From Posidonia oceanica (Eukaryota; Streptophyta; Magnoliopsida; Alismatales; Posidoniaceae), in NCBI GenBank assembly GCA_037176725.1, contig JAZBRS010000054.1:10868001-10932000 (forward strand): a stretch of 64,000 nucleotides of DNA. The letters are read 5' to 3'. This document shows positions 3,737 through 47,975 of this stretch, in pieces; the stretch's first letter is position 1; each line of letters starts with the position of its first letter. The notes under the pieces were generated by a model. That model worked only from the letters and a program-made list of their open reading frames with translations. It had not been told where the DNA came from and made no database searches. The position numbers and the translations under genes are program-made.

Positions 3737-4175
3737 CACTACAACAAAACTGTTTATTATTGATGGATTTTCCATCAGTAAAGTTAAAAAATCCATCGGT
3801 AAATAAATATTCCGACGAATTTTCCATCGGCATATCTCTGTAGTTAAGGAGGCGTCGCTAACCTTATTTAGCAACAGATTTTTCGAAATTTCCGTCGGTA
3901 AGAATTTTGATTTTTTATAAGAATGTATAATTTAACGACGGAAAATCCGTCTGTATTAAATTATTTACTGACGGAATTTCGATCATTATTTTATTAACGA
4001 CAGAAAATCCTTAAGTAACTTAAATAGATACTGACAGAAATTCCGTCTGTAATTGTGATATCTTCCAATAGATTATTCGACTGTAATTTAAATCTTTACC
4101 GACGGTTTGCCCGTCGGTATATTTTTACCTTATCGACGGATGGTCCGTCGGTTTATATTTATATTACTGATGAAT
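3737..4175. repeat. CACTA-1 left terminal and subterminal repeat array
   Basis: After the 23-bp terminus come many short copies, in both orientations, of a motif close to ccgacggaatttccgtcggta. In CACTA elements such arrays are the binding sites for the transposon-encoded DNA-binding protein. That role is family knowledge, not visible here. The matching array is at the right end. Confidence 0.85.
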
Positions 4176-5919: not shown

Positions 5920-7499
5920 GAATTTTATTTTTTCCCCTTTATCTACAAAGATGTTTTTTCAACAATTTTTTTAAAAAATTACAAGTGGGTGCCTGCAAGT
6001 GGACTCTATCCGAAAAATTTCAGTGAGTATTAACTTGCAACAATGGCATCATTTATCTTGAAAAATATCAGTGATTATTGGATTGTATAAAACATGGAAT
6101 GGCCACATATATTGTTAAAATGTCAGCTTTTAATTATCACTTGCACCTGGAGTAAAGGATTAAACCAAATAATTTCATTGATAATACTAATCTGTGTACA
6201 GGGCTGCGAATAGCCAACTGATGAAAACACAAGTAACAAAGTATCCCTTTTCTAGAAACTAAGGATGACCTATCAATAGAGACGAGACATGAACAAGCCA
6301 TCGTAACTAGAAGGCTAGAAACCTAAGAAATTTTTGTTCAGGGAAGCATTAATCTGCCAATTATTTAGATATGCAGTTTCACTGGTTGGTCGATTGATAG
6401 GAAGGTTAGAAACCTTCCCCTTTATCTAACAAGGAAGGTATTTCCGTATTTGCAAGAAAAACAACACAGGAAACAACTACACATCCACATTGATAGGCCA
6501 TTGACTGAATATGAAAACAACACAGGAAGTCTTAACATGTACCTGATCATCATTGACAAGAAGATCATCTAGGAGGCCTATGCCAATATGAGCTGCCATC
6601 TTTTGCATAAAATTGGCCATTGACTTGTTCTTCTTCTACACATAATTAATATTAGTTTTCAACATTAATATATAAAGAATGGAACATAAATATATTAACA
6701 GTGAATACCTTTAATGTGGCTATCTCGTCTTGCAACATGGCCACTCTAGGAGTTGAATCATGTCGAAACCTTCTACTATGTTGTGTAGCAGCACCAACAC
6801 TAGCTAGTCGAACTCTATCAGACTTTTGAAGATCCAAAACTTGTGTAATTGCGATATCCTCTATCTCATCCAAGCCACGTGAAGAGCTTTTAGTTTGTGG
6901 AGTCAAGATTGTTTCATTTATTTTGGTCTACATCAAAATATATTTCATTTGAAAAAATAATCATATACTAATACAAATATATTCTATAGTTATGCAATGC
7001 ACACACAATGATCTCATTATTACGATGGTCGGGTTTTGGAACATATGCTTGACTCATCATTTCCAATCTTGTGGGACTATGTCCCTTCTCTTTTCTCTAG
7101 GAACATAATAAAAAGGAAAATTATGAAATCAAGTGTTATAATCTTACAATAAATAAATGAGTATGCTATTCTAATTGGATTAAATATTATACCATTTGTT
7201 GACGAAGTTGAGTGAACGAACTCGATCCAGTGTGATGATTCTTTTTCTTTTTCTTCCAATTCATGCTATTCAAATGGGATATTCTCTACAACAACAAAAC
7301 CAAAATTATATTAGAAGTCAGATAACAATCAGAATTTATGCTTGATAGATAACAATTAGAAGTTAGATAACCAATATTATATTCATGCTTATGTCAGACA
7401 AGTGAGGGACATGAGAATTATGCTTGATAAATGACTTATGCTTATGTCAGATAACATTTATGAAAGAAGATGCGAAAGTCAAACAAGTGAGCAAGTCAA

Positions 7500-13707: not shown

Positions 13708-13829
13708 GAGGAGGAGGTCTCGGGAGGAAGAAGAAGAAGAGGAAAAGAGGAATCAGGCGGAAGAAGAAAAAGAGGCTTAGGGCGGAAGAAAGAAAAAACC
13801 AACGAAATTTTTTTAGTCTCGTGGGTTTT

Positions 13830-14035
13830 TACTTATCGACGGAAATACCGTCGGTAATAAATTACATTTTTAGGTACTAACGGAAATTCAATCGGTAATA
13901 GATTAGGTTTTTAACTTACCGACGGAAATTCCGTCGATAATATATTAGTGACGGAATTTCCGTCAGTAAGTGACTAAGTAAATTTAATTACTGACAGAAT
14001 TAAATCTGTTGGTAATAAACAGTTTTGTTGTAGTG
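13830..14035. repeat. CACTA-1 right subterminal array and terminus
   Basis: Copies of gacggaaattccgtcggtaa in both orientations lead into the inverted terminus that ends TTGTTGTAGTG at 14035. It mirrors the left end and completes the element. Confidence 0.9.
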
Positions 14036-36096: not shown

Positions 36097-37057
36097 TCAA
36101 ATTCTCTGTTCAACATATGAGCCAGACAGGCCGGAGGTGCCAATAACATTTATCTGCAATACAAAATCATATGCAAATCAAGACATCATGGCTAGAACAA
36201 CATAATCTAATGATGGAAACATATAATATATAAGAATACTTGATGAGGTTTTTCGGTTTTTCATCTTGCAGATATGTAATTTGGAAATGTTTGTAGATTC
36301 CCATCTATGGTCGATTGCTTATATTTGGAGTCAAGTTGCAGGAAGAAATACTAAAAGAAAGTTTATCAAGCAAGAGAGATTAAATAAAAAATAGTTCATT
36401 CAAGGCAGTTCAAACCCTCTCGATCTTGAGTAGAAACAAAATAGGAACAAACGATTCACAATTTCAAGCTGATCGCAATTTGCATTTAAAAGTGGCTTCT
36501 TAGGCATTTCTCGGCATATAATTGTTATGAATGTAGACCTTCAACACTTAAAATATCCAAGAACAGTTGCAGAAGAAACACCCCAAAAGTTTAAGCATAA
36601 AGCCATTGATGCATGACAAACAGACTTCTGAGTTTGCAAATTACTTAACATCTATGTTCAAACAAATGATGAAATGAACGACGATAATTATGATGAAATA
36701 ATTTATTAATAAAAAAACTAAACCCATATTAAACAAAACGAATAGATCTTTTTTATCAGTAGAACAAATAAATTCTGCAGACAAGTAAAATGTTGATCTA
36801 ACATGTCAGTTAGTTGTCATGAGAAGCTACCTACCTCGCCCCATTCAGAACCAAGGCCACTGATCCTCTGCTTAAAGTGAATTAATCTAGTTCCCAACTC
36901 TGCTTCAACTTTCTTACGCAAATAAGTTTTCAAAAAAAAAAAAAAAAATCTTACGCAAATAAGTTTCCTCAAAGCTAAATGAATTCATATATGCTATGTA
37001 GCGATTATATGCAACTGTGATAGCATTCACCAACTCCTCAGGCAGCTCAGTCACATT
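36097..37057 (-). pseudogene. Last two exons of a conserved plant gene, disrupted
   Basis: Exon n (37057 down to 36835) has an acceptor ..cttttag before it and a donor GAG|gtaggt after it. It reads NVTELPEELVNAITVAYNRY, then IAYMNSFSFEETYLRK, then KVEAELGTRLIHFKQRI and SGLGSEWGE. The last exon (36153 down to 36097, after tattgcag) reads INVIGTSGLSGSYVEQRI and stops at TGA 36097-36099. Splice sites, phase and codon use look genuine. I do not recognise the family with confidence. Exon n contains a 37-bp insertion (36930-36966) that shifts the frame. Just upstream the gene runs into the LINE, so its 5' exons are displaced or lost. Confidence 0.65.
36912..36966 (+). mobile_element. Poly(A)-only retro-insertion with 18-bp target duplication
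   Basis: The 18-bp word tcttacgcaaataagttt occurs at 36912-36929 and again at 36949-36966. Between them are only tc and 17 A residues. This is the expected product of LINE-type target-primed reverse transcription when the element is truncated to its tail. The insertion adds 37 bp to a coding exon, causing a frameshift and a stop (minus strand: AAG ATT TTT.. TGA). Confidence 0.8.
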
Positions 37058-38559: not shown

Positions 38560-40975
38560 ATTTATTGGAGGCAACATTCTAGAATCCAATGGTTGAAGGA
38601 AGGATATCTCAATACTTCTTTTTTCCATAAAATGGTAAATTGTAGGAGAAGGATAAATACAATTTCATCACTGCCTATCAATGATGTCTGTATTGACTCC
38701 CTGCTAATAATAAGTAAGGCTATTGAGCAGTATTTCTTCTCCCTATTTAATAAGCCCTCTTGTCCTACTCTTTCTTTCAATTGGGATCTTTGATTGACGG
38801 AGAAAATTTCTCACCCTTCATATCTTGAAGGCCAATTTTCAAATGAGGAAATCAAGAGAAGTGTTTTCTCTCTGCTTGATGAAACATCTTCAGGTCCTGA
38901 TGGTTTTTCTCTACGTTTTTACCATCACTTTTGGGATGACATTAAGAGGAACATATGTGATATGTTTGAGTATTTTCACCAATCAAATGATGTCAACACT
39001 CTACAGAGTATCAACCAGACTTTTATCACCCTAATTCCTAAGAAATCAAATGCTGAAAAAGTTCAAGACTATCGCCTTAGTAGTCTTCTTAATAGAAGTT
39101 ATAAGATCATTTTCAAATGCCTAGGGAATTTTCCCTATCCTTAACTCCTTATTGGATGATACCCAATGTGCTTTCCTTCCTAGGCGCAACATTAGTGATT
39201 GTTTTCTGATAGTTCAAGAGACACTCCATTTAATGCATACTTCTCAAGTTCCTGGAATTATGCTCAAATTAGACTTTGAGAAGGCATTTGATAACGTTAA
39301 TTGAGACTTTATCATTAACACACTTAGAGAGCTAGGATGTAGAGATAAATGAATAAATTGGATAGGGATGTGTATTAACACAACAAAATTCTCTATATTA
39401 GTTAATGGTTTCCCTAAAGGCTTCTTTGGAGTCTTAAATGGTCTTAGACAAGGGGACCCACTATCTCCACTTCTGTTTATAGTAGCCACTTACATTCTTA
39501 ATAGAATGCTAGCACTGGGGAAAGAAAATAATTTTATCAAAGGAATTTAATACCCTCATGCAGGACCTGATGTGGTAAATATCCAATATGCTGATGACAC
39601 ACTCTTATTTCTATCCCCTGCTGACTGTGTCATAAATCTCAAAAGAATTCTTTGTTGTTTTCACACCTACTCTGGTCTAAAAATAAATTTCAGTAAGTCC
39701 TCACTCATAGGAATTGGTGTTCCAAATTTCTTAATCAATAGATTCTGTAATATTTTGGGTTGTAATTCTAAGTCCTTTCCAATCACATATTTGGGTCTGC
39801 CTCTTCATTACAAAAAGACATCCTATAGCGATTGGTCACCTGTATTGGATAAACTCATGGCCAAATTAGACACATGGAAGGCCAAATATTTATCAATTGG
39901 AAGTAGACTCACTTCAATCAACTCTGTTCTATCTACTATACCCACCTACTATTTATCAGTCCTTCATCTTCCAATGAAGGTTGAGTTGGAAATTGACCGA
40001 ATTCGTCGTCGTTTTCTTTGGAAATCTACCTCAACTTCCACTAGAGGCTACTATTTGGCCAAATGGCAAAACATTTGTCGAAACAAGGAGCAAGACGGGT
40101 TAAGTATAATCAATATTAGAAATTTTAACACTGCATTGAAATGTAAGTTGCTTTGGCAATTACTTGCAAATAACATGTACCTCAAATGGCTTGAGCTTGT
40201 CAAAAGTAGATATTTATCTCATAATCACATTGGTGCCCTTTTAAATGTGGCCTCCAATAGGGCCTCACTCCTTTTGCAGGAATTAAGGACTTGTTTTCCT
40301 ATTGTTAATATCCTTTCTTCATTCACAATGAACAATGGGAAAAAAACAATTTTTTGAGAAAATAAATGGACAAACAACATTGCTTTGAAGTATGCTTTAC
40401 CTGATTTATACTACATCTCTACAAATAAGAAATGCACTATTGAAAAGATGCTTATGAAATACAGTGCCAACCATTTAGCCATATTTAATAATAATAATAT
40501 TCAATTCTAATCAGATTTCATCCAATTGCACCAATTCATAAACATTATGGAGTCCCTTACTTTATCTAGTGAGGAGGATAACCTGCAATGGACTCTTACT
40601 TCCAAAAATATATTTTCTATTAAAAGTTGCTATAGTTTCTTAAATGATGGTGGACTTAGGTCTCAGTTCAAAACTAATATTTGGAAATGTTCAGCACCAC
40701 TAAAAATTAAAGTTTTTGCTTAGCTTGTTACTCATGATAACATTCTTTCTAGAGCCAATTTACTTAGAAAATGATGGATTGGTTCACCTCATTGTGTCTT
40801 TTGTGGATATGATATGGAAACTACTTCCTATATTTTCTTACATTGTTTGGTGTCTTTGGCAGTTTGGGGCTTTTTTCTGAACAATACTAACTGCTTGAAC
40901 ACCATCCGAATTTGTGATATTTTTTCCATGTTCAGTTTAGTTAAATTTAATTTAAGTTTGAAAGGATGGAACATG
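38560..40975 (+). pseudogene. LINE reverse transcriptase and zf-RVT, broken
   Basis: The reverse transcriptase motifs in order are SSGPDGFSLRFYHHFW, INQTFITLIPKK, LKLDFEKAFDNVN, GLRQGDPLSPLLFIVA and the catalytic IQYADDTLLFLS (39585). Then come ITYLGLPLHYK and the zinc-binding C-terminal region WKCSAPLKIKVFA, PHCVFCGYDMETTSYIFLHC and WGFFLNNTNC. Frameshifts occur near 39145-39360, and several stops are present. The C-terminal reading resumes after CACTA-2 at 46428. Confidence 0.93.
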
Positions 40976-40989
40976 CACTGCTAGAAATT

Positions 40990-41150
40990 TTACATTTTAC
41001 GAGGACAATTAGCGAGGAAATTGCGAGGAGATGTCCTCACAAAACTTTAATGAGAAAATTAGCGAGGACATAGCGAGGATATGTCCTCATTATACTACAA
41101 TGAGGACTTAGTGAGGAAATGTCTTCTCAATTTCCTCGTCAAATATCCTA
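40990..41150. repeat. CACTA-2 left subterminal array
   Basis: About seven copies of (t)agcgagga(c/a)at..and atgtcctca words lie in both orientations directly inside the left end. They are likely transposase-binding sites by analogy with other CACTA elements. Confidence 0.85.
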
Positions 41151-41165
41151 GAAATTTCCACGAAT

Positions 41166-41560
41166 GCGCTCATTTTCCCTCTTTTCCTCTGCTTTCCCAC
41201 TCGTCCCCAGATCCCCACGACCTCCTCCCTGAACTAAAACCCTTCCTCTTTTATTCCTCCTCCTCCTTCTCCTTCTCCCTTGGCCTCGACCTCGACGAGG
41301 ACCCAGTCCCAGACCCCAGAGGCTCCCACCCCATTCCAGCAACGGACGTAGTGGAGCGAGGGAAAGAAAAATAGGTAGTAGTCGAGAAGGAGGATGAGGA
41401 TGTGGATTTTAGCCCTTCTCCCCACCTACCCATGCCTGTGCTCAAGCGGCTCAACAGGGGGCTCCGTGATCAAGGTGCGGCTGCGCCTTCCACGAGTGGA
41501 AGTTTGGGTTTCAACTGCTTCGACGATGACATCGAGGAGTTCTCCTCGCAGGAATGGGGT
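41166..41560 (+). pseudogene. Unidentified captured first-exon fragment in CACTA-2
   Basis: A GC-rich frame, open except for TAG at 41372-41374, reads DPHDLLPELKPFLFYSSSSF, LGLDLDEDPVPDPRG, VVVEKEDEDVDFSPSP, MPVLKRLNRGLRDQG and GFNCFDDDIEEFSSQEW, then a donor-like gGGTTTGTGG. It is acidic and Ser/Pro-rich. It could be the 5' exon of the SGT-type gene that follows or come from another locus. I do not recognise it. Base composition differs sharply from the subterminal array beside it. Confidence 0.45.
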
Positions 41561-42245
41561 TTGTGGGTTTTTTTTTCTTCTTTTATCAATCCTTTTTTTT
41601 TTAAAGAAGAAGAAGAAGGAAATCTAATCTTGTGTCTGCATTGTTCGATTAGCATACTTTCCTGGATAAAAGATGCGTTTTTTTTCGGAATCTGGTGCTG
41701 TTTTTGTTCTTGCTTCGGGGAATATTTAGAAAAAAAAATCAAATCTATGTGGGTTCATACTGTGCAAGAACGGGTGCAATTTCTGTTGGTTAATGATTTT
41801 TGAGATGATTTGGACTTTGCTCTAATACAATGAAATCCTTAAGATTTAAAACTTGGTGCGTTGCACGTTTGATTGCAATTTGATTGATTAAACTCCCTAG
41901 TTAATCTTCTTTACTTTGATTAAACTCTCTTTTCGAGATCCCTAAACGCATTATCTGGTTTATTTTCTTGTGTTTCCCAGTATTTGTTTCCTAGTGTCCT
42001 GATTGTTTTTCTTCCTTGTTGCAGGGAATTGTTGATTTTTCCATGTTCAAATAATAAATATCATCATGGGTTGGCTAAAAAAGATTTTCACAAAAAAAAA
42101 TGCTTTAAAAAAATTTTATGTTACAGATGTTTCTATGGGTGATGTGCTATGGAACAGATGTTTCTTTCAAGTGCTAGAATAATGAAGGTGTTTCTGTTAA
42201 CATGGATACAAATTTATGTTAACCTTCATTGCAACTTCTTATCAG

Positions 42246-44140
42246 GCAATCGGAACATGCAATCAAAATTATACCCTGAAGCTATTGATCTATATACTTG
42301 TGCCATTGCGCTCTCTGATAAGAATGCTATTTACTATTGTAACAGGTGAGGATTGTCTTTTCTAGTTGAGGTAACCACCTTTGTCCACTTTTGGCAGTAT
42401 TGACTTAACTTGCAGGTTAATAAACTCTTGTGCTCTGGCTTTTTGTGGATCTGAGGATGGATGTCATGTCTTAATATCTAGTGTATTATTAGATGATTAA
42501 AGAACTTATTTCCGATTAAGGTTGTGTTTGGTAATGATTATGGTACTCAGCTTCTAGTAGGAATCTTTTTTTAGTCCTACTTATTCCCTAACGAGAAAAA
42601 AAGACAGTGTAACCATAGACGCTATTACAGTTTGCGTCTATCAGAATCATTACCAAACACCTAAGTAAAGAATAAAGAACTTGTTTGCCTTCTCCTAACT
42701 CTAGATGTAATGGGATTTTTTTTTTTTTTTGAGTAAAAGGTGGGATGCCACCAGAACTTTTATTGAGAAAACATCCGTAAGTTTAACAAGCTCAAATAGG
42801 TTAGGAAAAGAAAAAAAGAGGAGGAAGATATCTAGCATGCCACCATCCACGACTTGACAATACTCTAGGATATTTGCATTTTCTTTTTATTACAGATGGC
42901 CAAAAGGATGATGTGCGTGTGCTTTACTATTCTCTTTCCAACTTTGTTTCCAATATATTACCACCTGAAGATTGAATTTTAACTTTGACACCCAAATATG
43001 TCCAAAACTTGAGATTGTACCAGATACTCTTGTTAAACCCTAAATTTGTTTCTCTTGCTTGAAGTCAAATTATATATTTATGCTTGTTTATGGATCTTAT
43101 GCTTTAGCACTTTTCTTAATCTCCTACATAAAATCTGTATTCTCCTTTTGTTTGAGCTCTTTTTATATCTGGTGTTGTTTTGCATGTGGTATCTTGCCCT
43201 GCGAGATTCCTGATGTTGTCGCAATAAACTTTATTAGCAACATTAGGCTTTATGGAAGTTGGTTATATTGAATGCTCTTCATTAATATCTGTTGTGGCTA
43301 ATGAAGAAAAAGAAAAATAAATTATTGGTATTAATATTAACAGGCTATTTTTTTCTTGTTTTCTTTGTTGGAATAAAGTAGCACTTATGAGCGTGTGTGA
43401 TTTCAAGGCTGCTGCTTACACCCAAATCTCTAAATATGATGAAGCAATCATGGATTGCAGGAAGTCCATTGAAATTGACCCAAATTATGCCAAGGCTTAT
43501 AGTCGACATGGACTAGTTTTTTATGCACTAGGGAAATACAAGGAAGCTGTGGTACTTTTCTTAAAAGATAGCATTGTAATGAACTTGATATTCCTTGCCA
43601 TAAATGAATACTCTAAACTGATACTTATATGGTTATACTTTATGTCTAGAATTTGAAACTTCTGAACCTGTCAATGATAGAATTTTCCTCAGGATGATTG
43701 AAGCTATTTGTATTTTTGATTGTTTGCCATCATCGGTTGATGGCATCCTACCAACGTATAACAAAGATCTTTTAATTTATCTCAATTTGATAACCAAAAA
43801 TCTGAAATATATCGTAATATAAGTAAAACAGATTTCATGACTCAAATGTTTAGAACTTTAGTAAATCTTACTTGGATTCACTTTCATGCGTACAGCTTTG
43901 CAGCTGGATCCCAATAATGATTCTGTTCGAGAAAATATTCGGGTATATTCTCCTTATTTTCCTGAAGTTCTGCTTCAGCTAAATGTTTCCCTCATTGAAT
44001 GTGATACATACATTGTTTCTTTTCTTTGCCAGGTGTATATATGAATCTTTTCTTCGTTGCAGTAATATCTATGTTTTGAATCTTAGGTAGCTCAGCAAAA
44101 ATGGAGAGAAGAACAACACCATGCAGAAACTGATCATCAG
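42246..44140 (+). pseudogene. Captured SGT/SGTA-type TPR co-chaperone fragment (4 exons)
   Basis: Exons read in order. 42246-42345: GNRNMQSKLYPEAIDLY, then DKNAIYYCNR, donor gtgagg. 43407-43551: AAAYTQISKYDEAIMDC, SIEIDPNYAKAYSRHGL, then YALGKYKEAV, donor gtactt. 43896-43942: ALQLDPNNDSVRENIR. 44087-44140: VAQQKWREEQHHAETDHQ. These are three TPR motifs and the start of the linker of small glutamine-rich TPR proteins, which bind Hsp70/Hsp90 tails and hand over tail-anchored proteins. The N-terminal dimerisation and C-terminal Gln-rich parts are absent. The acceptor of the second exon appears mutated: the phase requires GGCTGC to follow AG, but the sequence is ttcaa. It is probably non-functional, though it could be transcribed. 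Confidence 0.85.
42520..42661. mobile_element. Tourist-like MITE in the captured intron
   Basis: GGTTGTGTTTGGTAATGATT at the left and AATCATTACCAAACACC at the right are inverted. A TAA duplication flanks them (42517-42519 and 42662-42664). It is 142 bp and non-coding. It sits in the first captured intron of the SGT-type gene. Confidence 0.85.
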
Positions 44141-44508
44141 GTAGCTTCAATTTCCAGGCATTTAGCGTAAAGTAATTGCAAGGTTGCATTTTAATAAATT
44201 ATTGTGAACCCAGTGCGGTTCTGAATGTCCTGCAATTATATAATAGATTAACTACCGAGCGAGTTACTGTCTTGGAAGTATTTTGACATCTACCATTTAA
44301 ATTTATTCCTAACTTTTCAGAGTGCTTGACCATGCAGTTTTATAGTCATACATTTAAAGGACCATGCAGATTTATAATAAGCATATGACATCTTCAAGCA
44401 ATGATTTTGATATATGGATGCCATGTTTACCTAAAAGTGATAACAAATTATCACGTAAAGAAAATGAAAGTTTGGAGATGTTTATTACTCAATGATGAAC
44501 TAACAAGT

Positions 44509-44862
44509 CTATTCATATATCAAATATTTTGAGCTGTTAATGTGGTGTGCTGAGGATGAAATCAGTGCTTCTGCTATTTCCTGCCATCTGGGCACCTCTC
44601 TTCCTACCTTCTCAGTCTTCTTCCTTGTTTGAAGAATGTATGTTTGTCTCTTGTCTACGCTCTTTTTTCTTCTTCTTCTTTTTTGGTGATCTTTCCTAGC
44701 CAGAGTTCTGAATGCTGTAATGCTGTTGTTCTTGATGTGTTGATCTGAGCAAACTTGGTCTTTTCTTTGAATTTGTACTTTGGTTATGGAGGACTTGTAG
44801 ATTTGGCTATTTGTGTTCATAATTTTCTCAGATGTGTAGGAAAAAAACAGAGTTTTTTTCAT
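44509..44862 (-). CDS. Unidentified basic ORF between the captured genes
   Basis: A 117-residue minus-strand frame. Its middle is strongly basic (KDHQKRRRRKKSVDKRQ) and its end reads VGREVPRWQEIAEALISSSA. It lies in what should be intron or filler between the TPR and LRR exons, antisense to both. It may be a third captured fragment or chance. No domain is recognised and no splice evidence was found. Confidence 0.2.
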   Translation of the reverse strand: MKKTLFFSYTSEKIMNTNSQIYKSSITKVQIQRKDQVCSDQHIKNNSITAFRTLARKDHQKRRRRKKSVDKRQTYILQTRKKTEKVGREVPRWQEIAEALISSSAHHINSSKYLIYE

Positions 44863-44903
44863 GCTCTTTCAATTTACTGAGATGGTTTGTGTGACATAAT
44901 TTC

Positions 44904-45900
44904 CCCCGGAGATTGGAGACCTGACAAGCATTTCAAAAATGTATGTGCATAATTTCTTAGCCGATAAAAGTGTTTCCCTTCCCCCTTTTTCCCTTTTTTT
45001 TTGTAATACTTGGCACACTCACTCTATTCATCTTTCGTCCAGTAATTTTCACTCCAATGGACTGACTGGTTGACTGCCACCTGAACTTGAAAATTTGAAG
45101 AGCCTCGTGGAGCTCAGGTTAGATAGGAATAGTCTTGGAGGATCCATCCCAGGAAGTGGTAGCTCAAGTTCAAATAACATTAACATGTATGTCGAAATGT
45201 TTTTGGTGTTTTTTTTTCCCCTATTATCTACCCAATTGGCTGCATTCTATGTATTAAGTGTCTTAGTTTATCAACATCTTGATTCTTGAATTCCAATTCT
45301 CCAGATTTTCATCTGAAAATAGATAACACACATTAAAGAAAGAGACCATTTGAGACACCAAAGCTGATAAGTTTTTTTTTTAAATACAAGAATAGAAGTA
45401 AAAACACAGTTTCTTTTTCTTACCATTGAATAAATACATATAATTTGATATACACTAGTACTTAAGATGGTACAAATTGTTAACAATTTTCTGTTGCATT
45501 CTCATGTTGTAGTTTCAATATTTATATTTGCTGCAATAGATATTTATTATGTTATTGAATGTCTCAGAAACTTCACTTTTTTGGCATTTGTGTTGGGTTG
45601 TTGATTACTTAGTTTTCTTTCTAATCTATTACAGCACAATTGGTTTTCCCTACCTTGCTATGAAAAAATGGTTTATTATTTTAGGATTGGAGAAAGAGCC
45701 CCAGATGCAGATATGCATATAGCACAGTGGGAAGTATTCTAGTAGATGTGAACATATTATAAGAACATTACTACAATTGCTTTTCTTGTTGTCCCAGATC
45801 AAGTTCACACAAAAACATTGGCTTATGCTCACTGGAGAAATTAGACATTGAAGATTTGTCATATAACTTTTTCACTGGGAAGATTCCTACTTGTCTTGGC
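44904..45900 (+). pseudogene. Captured LRR receptor-like kinase fragment (3 exons)
   Basis: Pieces in order are PPEIGDLTSISKM (about 44905-44941), then NFHSNGLTG, a TGA at 45071-45073, LPPELENLKSLVELRLDRNS and LGGSIPGSGSSSSNN (45043-45190), then GLCSLEKLDIEDLSYNFFTG and KIPTCLG (45798-45900). This matches the LRR part of Arabidopsis At1g63430/At5g41180-type receptor-like kinases. In those, PELGNLKSLVELRLDRN and SYNFFVGSIPKCL are conserved. Only ectodomain repeats are present; the signal peptide, transmembrane segment and kinase are absent. The in-frame stop makes a functional product unlikely. It has the same orientation as the TPR fragment. Confidence 0.8.
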
Positions 45901-46079
45901 TAAGTAAAAGCACATGGTTACTACAGAATAATATGCATTTGTTGTCAATATTATTTCAAACTTTATGTTGTATTTGCTTATGTATCCAAGTTATTCATGC
46001 TATATTTTGGAGCAGTTATGATTAATACCTATATTTTTATTTATTTTTTTAATTTTTATTTTTTTAATTTTTTTTTATA

Positions 46080-46427
46080 GTTTGTGAGGACTTAGCGAGG
46101 AAATGTCCTCGCTAAGTCCTTGCAATTTTTGTTTTTTTAATTTTTTTTAATTTGTTTGCGAGGACATAGCGTGTACTTTGCGAGGAGATTGCGAGTAATA
46201 GCGAGGACATTGCGAGTTATTTATTTCCTCGCAAAGTCCTCGCAAAGTTTTAGCGAGGACTTAGCTAGGAAATTTGCTTGCAAATGACTTTTAAAGACGT
46301 AGAATATTGCGAGGACTTTTTGTCCTCACAATGTCCTCGCGAAGGCAATTAGCGAGGAAATTGCGAGGACTTAGAGAGGACTTCACGAGGACATCTGTCC
46401 TCGCGATTTCCAATTTTTCTAGTAGTG
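46080..46427. repeat. CACTA-2 right subterminal array and terminus
   Basis: Many copies of gcgaggacttagcgagg and tgtcctcgc in both orientations, several adjacent pairs forming hairpins, lead to CTAGTAGTG at 46427. Confidence 0.9.
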
Positions 46428-47975
46428 ATGCTTGTTCTTGCTATCCTATGATACTTGTGGCTGAATAGAAATTCCATGATCTTTAGAAATCAAGGTAGAA
46501 GTCTCTCTTCAATTTTATTTCAAATTCTGCAACTCATGACTTGTTGGACAGATAATCTTCTTACAAGTCAGGGATCGGAGGCTATTTCTCAAGCCATTCA
46601 ACAAATGCAACAAGATTGAGATCAAGCCCAGGCAGCTCAGGCCATTGCTACTTCTATTGGTCTTTCTATGGGCCCTACTATTTCTACTGAAGACCTCAAT
46701 TCTGCTTTTGAGCCTGCTTATGATCCTGTTGCTCATTCAACAAATGGTTCAGGCGATTAATGGCAAATCTCAGATAGCTGGCACTTCAATATGGTTTTGG
46801 CCATTTCCTTTTTGGCTTGAACACCTCATTGTGTCTTCTGTGGACATGATATGAAAACTACTTCCTATATTTTCTTACATTGTTTGGTGTCTTTAGCAGT
46901 TTGGGGCTTTTTTCTGAACAATACTAACTGCTTGAACACCATCCGAATTTGTGATATTTTTTCTATGTTCAGTTTAGTTAAATTTAATTTAAGTTTGAAA
47001 GGATGGAACATGTTTGTTCTTGCTATCCTATGATACGTGTGGCTGAATAGAAACTCCATGATCTTCAGAAATCAGGGTAGAAGTCTCTTCAATTTTATTT
47101 CAAATTCTGCAACTCATGACTTGTTGGACAGATAATCTTCTTACAAGTCAGGGATCGGAGGCTATTTCTCAAGCCATTCAACAAATGCAACAAGATTAAG
47201 ATCAAGCCCTGGCAGCTCAGGCCATTGCTACTTCTATTGGTCTTTCTATGGGCCCTACTATTTCTACTGAAGACCTCAATTCTGCTTTTGAGCCTGCTTA
47301 TGATCCTGTTGCTCATTCAACAAATGGTTCAGGCGATTAATGGCAAATCTCAGATAGCTGGCACTTCAATATGGTTTTGGCCATTTCCTTTTTGGCTTGA
47401 ACACCTCATTGTGTCTTCTGTGGACATGATATGAAAACTACTTCCTATATTTTCTTACATTGTTTGGTGTCTTTAGCAGTTTGGGGCTTTTTTCTGAACA
47501 ATACTAACTGCTTGAACACCATCCGAATTTGTGATATTTTTTCTATGTTCAGTTTAGTTAAATTTAATTTAAGTTTGAAAGGATGGAACATGTTTGTTCT
47601 TGCTATCCTATGATACGTGTGGCTGAATAGAAACTCCATGATCTTCAGAAATCAGGGTAGAAGTCTCTTCAATTTTATTTCAAATTCTGCAACTCATGAC
47701 TTGTTGGACAGATAATCTTCTTACAAGTCAGGGATCGGAGGCTATTTCTCAAGCCATTCAACAAATGCAACAAGATTAAGATCAAGCCCTGGCAGCTCAG
47801 GCCATTGCTACTTCTATTGGTCTTTCTATGGGCCCTACTATTTCTACTGAAGACCTCAATTCTGCTTTTGAGCCTGCCTATGATCCTGTTGCTCATTCAA
47901 CAAATGGTTCAGGCGATTAATGGCAAATCTCAGATAGCTAGCACTTCAATATGGTTTTGGCCATTTCCTTTTTGG
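46428..47975 (+). repeat. 580-bp tandem triplication of the LINE 3' end
   Basis: Unit 1 is 40787-40975 plus 46431-46815 (split by CACTA-2). Unit 2 is 46816-47395 and unit 3 is 47396-47975. Units 2 and 3 are almost identical, each starting cttgaacacctcattgtg and ending ccatttcctttttgg. They encode the end of zf-RVT (VFCGHDMKTTS-like, WGFFLNNTNC) and the ORF2 C-terminus (QGSEAISQAIQQMQQD, GLSMGPTISTEDLNSAFEPA). The short ORFs here on either strand recur three times for this reason. Units 2 and 3 keep the uninterrupted CACTA-2 target (gaacatgtttgttc). Confidence 0.95.

Follow-up and report, generated by a model that had tools for sequence, protein, structure and literature searches.

In Ipomoea nil, the Tpn1 family of CACTA elements comprises 339 copies with a mean length of 7,081 bp, and chimeric transcripts have been reported from it (PMC5105172). 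The soybean element Tgm-Express1, a CACTA transposon of 5.7 kb, carries pieces of five unrelated genes, comprising both exons and introns, which are spliced as exons (PMC1947982). In Arabidopsis, rice and maize, a Pack-TYPE element contains sequence from several loci, with the most in maize Pack-CACTA (PMC8903248). Fusion of neighbouring insertions has been proposed as a model of capture (PMC8903248, PMC13317346), and neighbouring Pack-TYPE insertions have been seen in conserved orientation (PMC8903248).

The element compared here with these systems (Table 1) is called the window copy, the window being the whole 64,000-nt stretch of DNA that was analysed. It starts with CACTGCTAG and ends with CTAGTAGTG, each flanked by the triplet ATG, and its inverted termini are of the CACTA type (CACTGCTAGAAA and the reverse complement CACTACTAGAAA), with CACTG/CAGTG-type ends. 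Both sides carry subterminal repeats, some of them direct and some inverted. The target of the insertion is a tandem array of approximately 580-bp units, two of which, further right, have the site empty (47010 and 47590); both empty units match both flanks of the window copy, and the neighbouring repeats join at 47010-47012 with one ATG. These empty sites exclude that the two ends are paired by chance: the window copy is an insertion with the 3-bp target site duplication (TSD) of CACTA elements. No transposase was matched by Pfam at E <= 0.01 in the six frames of 41100-46070, and no transposase family was found in the interior modules of those family copies that were scanned with Pfam. Host gene fragments thus lie between CACTA ends in place of any transposase match, and a parent of one of them occurs elsewhere in the same genome (L043, see below). 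On its sequence, the window copy fits the tested Pack-CACTA features and can be classified as a member of a Tpn1/Tgm-Express1-like Pack-CACTA family. A preliminary description of a Pack-CACTA element with clean termini, an ATG duplication, subterminal arrays and no visible transposase is borne out by these results.

Table 1. Features of the window copy and its target site, in positions of the window.
Feature	Position	Strand	Remarks
Complete non-autonomous Pack-CACTA element, 5452 bp	40976..46427	+	Ends, TSD, empty sites, related copies elsewhere
TSD ATG, left copy	40973..40975		Empty units at 47010 and 47590 have one ATG
TSD ATG, right copy	46428..46430		Same empty-unit comparison
Left terminus with array of subterminal repeats (GCGAGGA motifs)	40976..41154	+	
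CT-rich, 5'-UTR-like segment	41155..41261	+	Same in L028, followed there by a different gene piece
First-exon piece captured from gene B, which codes for an uncharacterised protein conserved in angiosperms	41262..41558	+	Internal stop; small deletion beside donor
Start of gene B intron 1	41559..41920	+	Donor GT at 41559; alignment to L043
Composite intron	41921..42245	+	27 bp joining piece, then SGT-side sequence from ~41948; acceptor AG at 42244
SGT TPR exon 1 (GNRNMQSKLYPEAIDLYTCAIALSDKNAIYYCNR)	42246..42345	+	
SGT TPR exon 2	43408..43551	+	Acceptor altered in window copy
SGT exon 3 (ALQLDPNNDSVRENIR)	43896..43942	+	
SGT exon 4 (VAQQKWREEQHHAETDHQ)	44087..44140	+	
Deletion junction	44894..44901	+	~537 bp with LRR N-terminal exons gone from window copy
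3' part of LRR exon (PEIGDLTSISKM)	44901..44940	+	5' end truncated
LRR exon	45043..45186	+	LRR_1 match; one in-frame TGA (W codon in L010)
LRR exon (SSSHKNIGLCSLEKLDIEDLSYNFFTGKIPTCLG)	45798..45900	+	
Right subterminal repeat array and terminus	46080..46427	+	

Some further repeats were noted in the window. Unit copies of the tandem target (46428-47963 together with 40785-40975) are 94-99% alike and by eye resemble LINE sequence. A short stretch inside an SGT intron (42521-42664, ends GTGTTTGGTAATGATT/AATCATTACCAAACAC) has a MITE-like look, and 42496-42718, the region around it, is absent from L015. Tandem arrays with CCGTCGGTA-type units at 4096-4161 and 13824-13948 might mark the ends of a further CACTA element.

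Read on the plus strand, the window copy consists of a subterminal array, the CT-rich piece, the gene B exon with the start of its intron, a composite intron, SGT pieces, LRR pieces and the right array. All captured pieces share this strand, in agreement with the preliminary description; its count of two unrelated genes has to be raised to at least three, since gene B (41262-41920) had been missed. The parent of gene B is a gene without element ends on contig C70 of the genome (L043; exon start MANFAAPSFSFSLGLDLDEDP), to which the captured piece is 94% identical (637/676) through the exon into the intron. As the identity extends into the intron, gene B was captured at the DNA level, which substantiates, for this gene, the earlier view that pieces had been captured as DNA, with their introns retained. 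A downstream open frame of 504 codons in L043 matches 94 proteins, of which the named ones are from plants and nearly all are uncharacterised; the best-scoring homologues are from Tasmannia, Tetracentron and Davidia, and in the Tasmannia protein P0004 the motif order, including EEFSSQED, is by eye that of the L043 exon. A protein search with the short exon gave three short ENA proteins only. Proteins P0001-P0003 come from ENA contigs of <1 kb that contain copies of the gene B exon, 78-92% identical, and these could be transcripts of related elements. Sense fragments of gene B are present in 26 copies of the family, 92-97% identical to the L043 parent; the mean K2P distance is 0.042 between these copies and the parent, 0.059 among the copies and 0.015 between their consensus and the parent.

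The four SGT-type TPR exons previously described were recovered, whereas the three LRR exons are present only in part, the first being cut by a deletion and one containing a stop. In Pfam, the four SGT exon peptides joined match TPR_1 at E=1.1e-16 (5.9e-09 in the unjoined frame), and the six-frame scan of 41100-46070 found TPR families on plus frames and no family on minus frames. A PDB search with the TPR peptide gave 147 matching sequences, and among the best 60 of these SGTA (2vyi) matches in one stretch at 1.1e-25, outscored by five chains, three of them engineered and the others RPAP3 and STIP1. Since SGTA is not the best natural match in PDB, the gene is called SGT in part because of its motifs; SGT and At1g63430 are the labels that we assume for the captured genes. 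The joined LRR peptide, with the stop left out of the query, matches LRR_1 at E=9.5e-05 in Pfam and LRR receptor kinases at 1.7e-24, and LRR was not recovered in the unjoined six-frame Pfam scan of 41100-46070. The approximately 537 bp of LRR sequence deleted here are kept in five sister copies (L009, L010, L011, L013 and L015; sequence read in L015). At the positions chosen, 12/12 splice sites read GT or AG. The exon-2 acceptor, outside these twelve, is CAAGG in the window copy and L009, CAGGG in L010, L011, L013, L015 and L018, and TAGGA in L025 (eight copies read).

Parent loci in the same genome had been called for, and that of gene B was found, while for SGT none was established among L035 to L039. 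Loci L035 and L036 match around the exons only, with 71-81% DNA identity, and were rejected, as was L039, with 162 bp in common at 95%. L037 on contig C34 matches 43376-44042 at 93%, intron included, has a stop and is without exon 1; either a relic of the donor or a further copy is conceivable. On the same contig, five SGT exon-2 matches (at 36575, 565987, 1082708, 1443073 and 1761499) have open frames of 121-186 codons, and the one of these that was read, L037, has its stop in exon 3. The SGT-like loci L035 and L036, approximately 0.44 Mb apart on contig C23, are 87-99% alike in blocks, share similarity with the element in exons only and are perhaps an older duplicate pair.

When the 2.96-Gb genome (80 contigs) was searched with 41160-43000, at least 45 matches were obtained, with 40 of 421 candidates scored. 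Thirty copies were read, including the window copy; the 29 others, all from these matches, came as sets of 20, six and three, the last set having been fetched together with L043, the gene B parent, which is itself one of the matches. Both ends were located in 17 copies, window copy included, and identical 3-bp TSDs flank 14 of them, with mismatches in L026, L027 and L032; for one set of loci the TSD outcomes cover those seen there. Captured modules recur at many loci with different TSDs and have therefore moved after capture. Across the 30 copies the ends are common and the interiors change block by block as mosaics of gene pieces, which in the relatives include RPS3, VPS18, kinase, thiolase, gamma-CAL, MOB1, PIG-M, CSN1 and TIM10. 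Four interior types can be named, and further ones exist: the window type with B, SGT and LRR (L009, L010, L011, L013, L015); a VPS18/kinase/CSN1 type (L016, L017, L020-L022, L024); an RPS3-exon type, with the exon in L032, L033 and L040 and the backbone also in L029-L031 and L034; and a gamma-CAL/SGT/thiolase type (L026, L027). L009 additionally contains MOB1, and L042 contains PIG-M. Pieces of L015 (SKL1-like) and of L028 and L025 (UXS-like) are presumably what these names imply, and we likewise take the RPN7 match to be CSN1, the thiolase to be KAT, the kinase to be Raf-like and the coiled-coil exons to be VPS18. A plus-strand match to Nup54_57_C (0.0072) in L017 was dropped and presumed to be VPS18. 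The finding is confirmed; it is of an ordinary kind and richer than first described, and the initial interpretation holds in part, lacking the third gene and the multi-copy mosaic family.

The joins between blocks are sharp. Copies L025 and L028 enter the sequence of the window copy at 41948, L026 and L027 enter it at 41951, L029-L034 depart from it at 42023, and L028 departs near 41271, in a CT-rich run. The break at 42023, at a splice acceptor, was considered as a sign of RNA-level recombination and rejected, the sequence of L029-L034 beyond it not being exon-like. In L010, two successive right ends at oriented positions 6650 and 6929, each followed by AAAGTT, represent a duplicated terminus, and a second right end is also present in L009. 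An internal end-like motif common to L029, L032 and L033 was not counted as an end.

Among the copies, transitions were found at 209/1947 CG, 234/2618 CHG, 148/12195 CHH and 119/26264 A/T sites, so that CG and CHG transitions are approximately 20 times as frequent as those at A/T. With the gene B parent as reference the counts are 134/1387, 118/1155, 146/4929 and 108/8835, respectively, an approximately eightfold CG/CHG excess in which the A/T class may include misaligned homopolymers. Such an excess is left when methylated CG and CHG sites are deaminated, and its presence suggests that the copies were probably methylated. Changes in the exons were tested against this spectrum of the family itself. 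Distinct synonymous, nonsynonymous and stop changes number 27/50/2 in B (expected 25.5/50.4/3.1), 11/19/0 in TPR exon 1 (expected 8.4/20.3/1.3) and 5/15/1 in TPR exon 2 (expected 5.5/14.4/1.0). Substitutions in the family fit neutrality, in a test of low power whose spectrum alignments include the tested exons. Before correction, B has a dN/dS of 0.55 (23 copies) and TPR exon 1 one of 0.49 (21 copies, no stops or frameshifts), values that would suggest constraint, though TPR exon 2 has 0.79 (nine copies) and an LRR exon 1.98 (six copies).

Matches in Pfam or PDB, or a parent locus, identify 12 donor genes (B, SGT, LRR, RPS3, kinase, VPS18, thiolase, MOB1, gamma-CAL, PIG-M, CSN1/RPN7 and TIM10), and all of these read on the plus strand of the element, defined by its left terminus; two further pieces, presumably SKL1-like and UXS-like, do so as well. 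Under a coin-toss model the two-sided chance of 12/12 is approximately 0.0005 in this small sample, and because the copies are related this value serves for orientation rather than as a test. The minus-frame scans covered the window copy, L033, L017, the L026 3' module, L018 (4090-6100), L015 (5890-7320), L009 (550-2410) and L042. Modules of L018 and L015 matched no Pfam family on either strand, and those of L041 and the L026 5' side matched none on plus frames. The sole minus-strand match is TMEM9, which has E=0.0088 and, at 16.4 bits, stays below its cut-off (28.6). Three plus matches are also under their cut-offs: the VPS18 RING (17.5 bits against 27, E=0.0033), which has outside support, and, without outside support, RPN7 (27.9 against 29.6, E=2.3e-06) and RPS3 (29.6 against 34.1, E=1e-06; 34.1 of 34.1 in another scan).

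A functional chimeric gene, made when the family ancestor joined the first exon of gene B to the SGT TPRs and then maintained by selection, would agree with conceptual splicing that is often phase-compatible, with long open frames in L018 (all 198 codons tested), L009 (232/244), L013 (211/244) and L011 (209/244), and with the low raw dN/dS of TPR exon 1. It is nevertheless very improbable: stops interrupt B in 7/23 copies and a frameshift in one, the conceptual fusion of the window copy is broken by a stop after 97/240 codons, synonymous changes are not in excess over the neutral spectrum, and decay is of the methylation type. Purifying selection on the fusion was rejected, the low raw dN/dS of two exons vanishing against the observed mutation spectrum; at the window copy, no open spliced frame under purifying selection was found. 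Silencing of the parent genes by small RNAs made from the element is improbable; the sense fragments in 26 copies closely resemble the gene B parent, but the inverted pairs of at least 40 bases in and around the window copy are confined to the terminal arrays, outside the gene pieces. Insertion around resident genes, which the preliminary description had named as a contrary case, is excluded by the empty sites and by related copies elsewhere with their own TSDs. The outcomes it had proposed, a chimeric transcript or small RNAs against the parents, are not supported for the window copy, whose sequence has a stop in the fusion, a changed exon-2 acceptor and a stop in LRR, and substitutions in the family as a whole fit neutrality.

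The arrangement on one strand might itself come from the capture mechanism, with sense joining because capture goes with transcription, or from transcript selection, with only spliceable sense introns surviving in elements that often land in genes. Taken jointly, these two routes, compatible with the explanation preferred below, are a tentative possibility. Beside the 12/12 count, the end phase of exon B suits TPR exon 1 in 7/10 copies scored, and the pieces of Tgm-Express1 are processed as exons, their strand not being stated in the part of that report used here (PMC1947982). Against this, the sample is small, the copies are related to the window copy, captures were sampled on shared backbones, and the one minus match stands beside three plus matches that are also below cut-off. 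Doubtful as well is the general proposal that CACTA capture here is polar: unlinked gene pieces would be gained and kept almost only in sense, with gene 5' parts (of gene B, gamma-CAL and presumably a UXS-like gene) beside the left end and other exons downstream, assembling spliceable pseudo-genes, either because capture is guided by transcription or because copies that can be spliced are spared from removal. Capture bias is a topic of titles and passages cited for Pack-MULEs; for CACTA capture, the searches made yielded no report of strand bias, which does not prove absence. Gene shuffling by transposons is already known, and the uniform strand is notable and worth a census; in a many-copy family with at least 12 identifiable donors and one located parent, the order, source and strand of capture become countable.

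Very probably, the window copy belongs to an amplified, mosaic Pack-CACTA family that is mobilised in trans, grows by pieces of host DNA and decays neutrally. A transposase from an element elsewhere would act on the ends and subterminal repeats that the copies have in common, and copies would insert with 3-bp TSDs, as seen at many loci. Host gene pieces with introns would be captured between the ends at the DNA level, as gene B was, and joined serially, the joins read falling inside introns or CT-rich runs. The mosaics suggest that related copies exchange, lose or gain modules in blocks. Copies would then probably be methylated and, as their mutation pattern indicates, decay as neutral DNA. 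Most likely the window copy is a passenger that has been silenced and encodes no working protein; if it were expressed, the product would be a spliced chimeric RNA without an established function, and a functional chimeric protein is unlikely.

This evidence fits a trans-mobilised passenger that grows by host DNA added between its ends, and the number of copies and donors, combined with a single strand, seems to be its uncommon part. Helitrons are rolling-circle elements without TIRs or TSDs, unlike the CACTA family here. Those of maize resemble it in the stepwise gain of several gene fragments, subsets of which are common to related copies (PMC3288121). Pack-CACTA elements share with it several donor loci per element, although most CACTA ones in that survey are of low copy number and the Posidonia family has many copies (PMC8903248). 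Tgm-Express1 is likewise a CACTA element with exon and intron pieces of several unrelated genes; it is one insertion, in intron 2 of F3H, with RNA evidence, whereas the present family has many copies with varied modules and is known from DNA alone (PMC1947982). Tpn1 elements, too, are non-autonomous members of the CACTA superfamily: their TSDs are of 3 bp, their ends and subterminal repeats are conserved, and host genic sequence has replaced their interiors; they differ in host, in the genes captured and in having a known putative autonomous partner, and the parts of that report used here do not discuss capture orientation (PMC5105172). From these sources, the Tpn1 family and Tgm-Express1 are the closest known systems.
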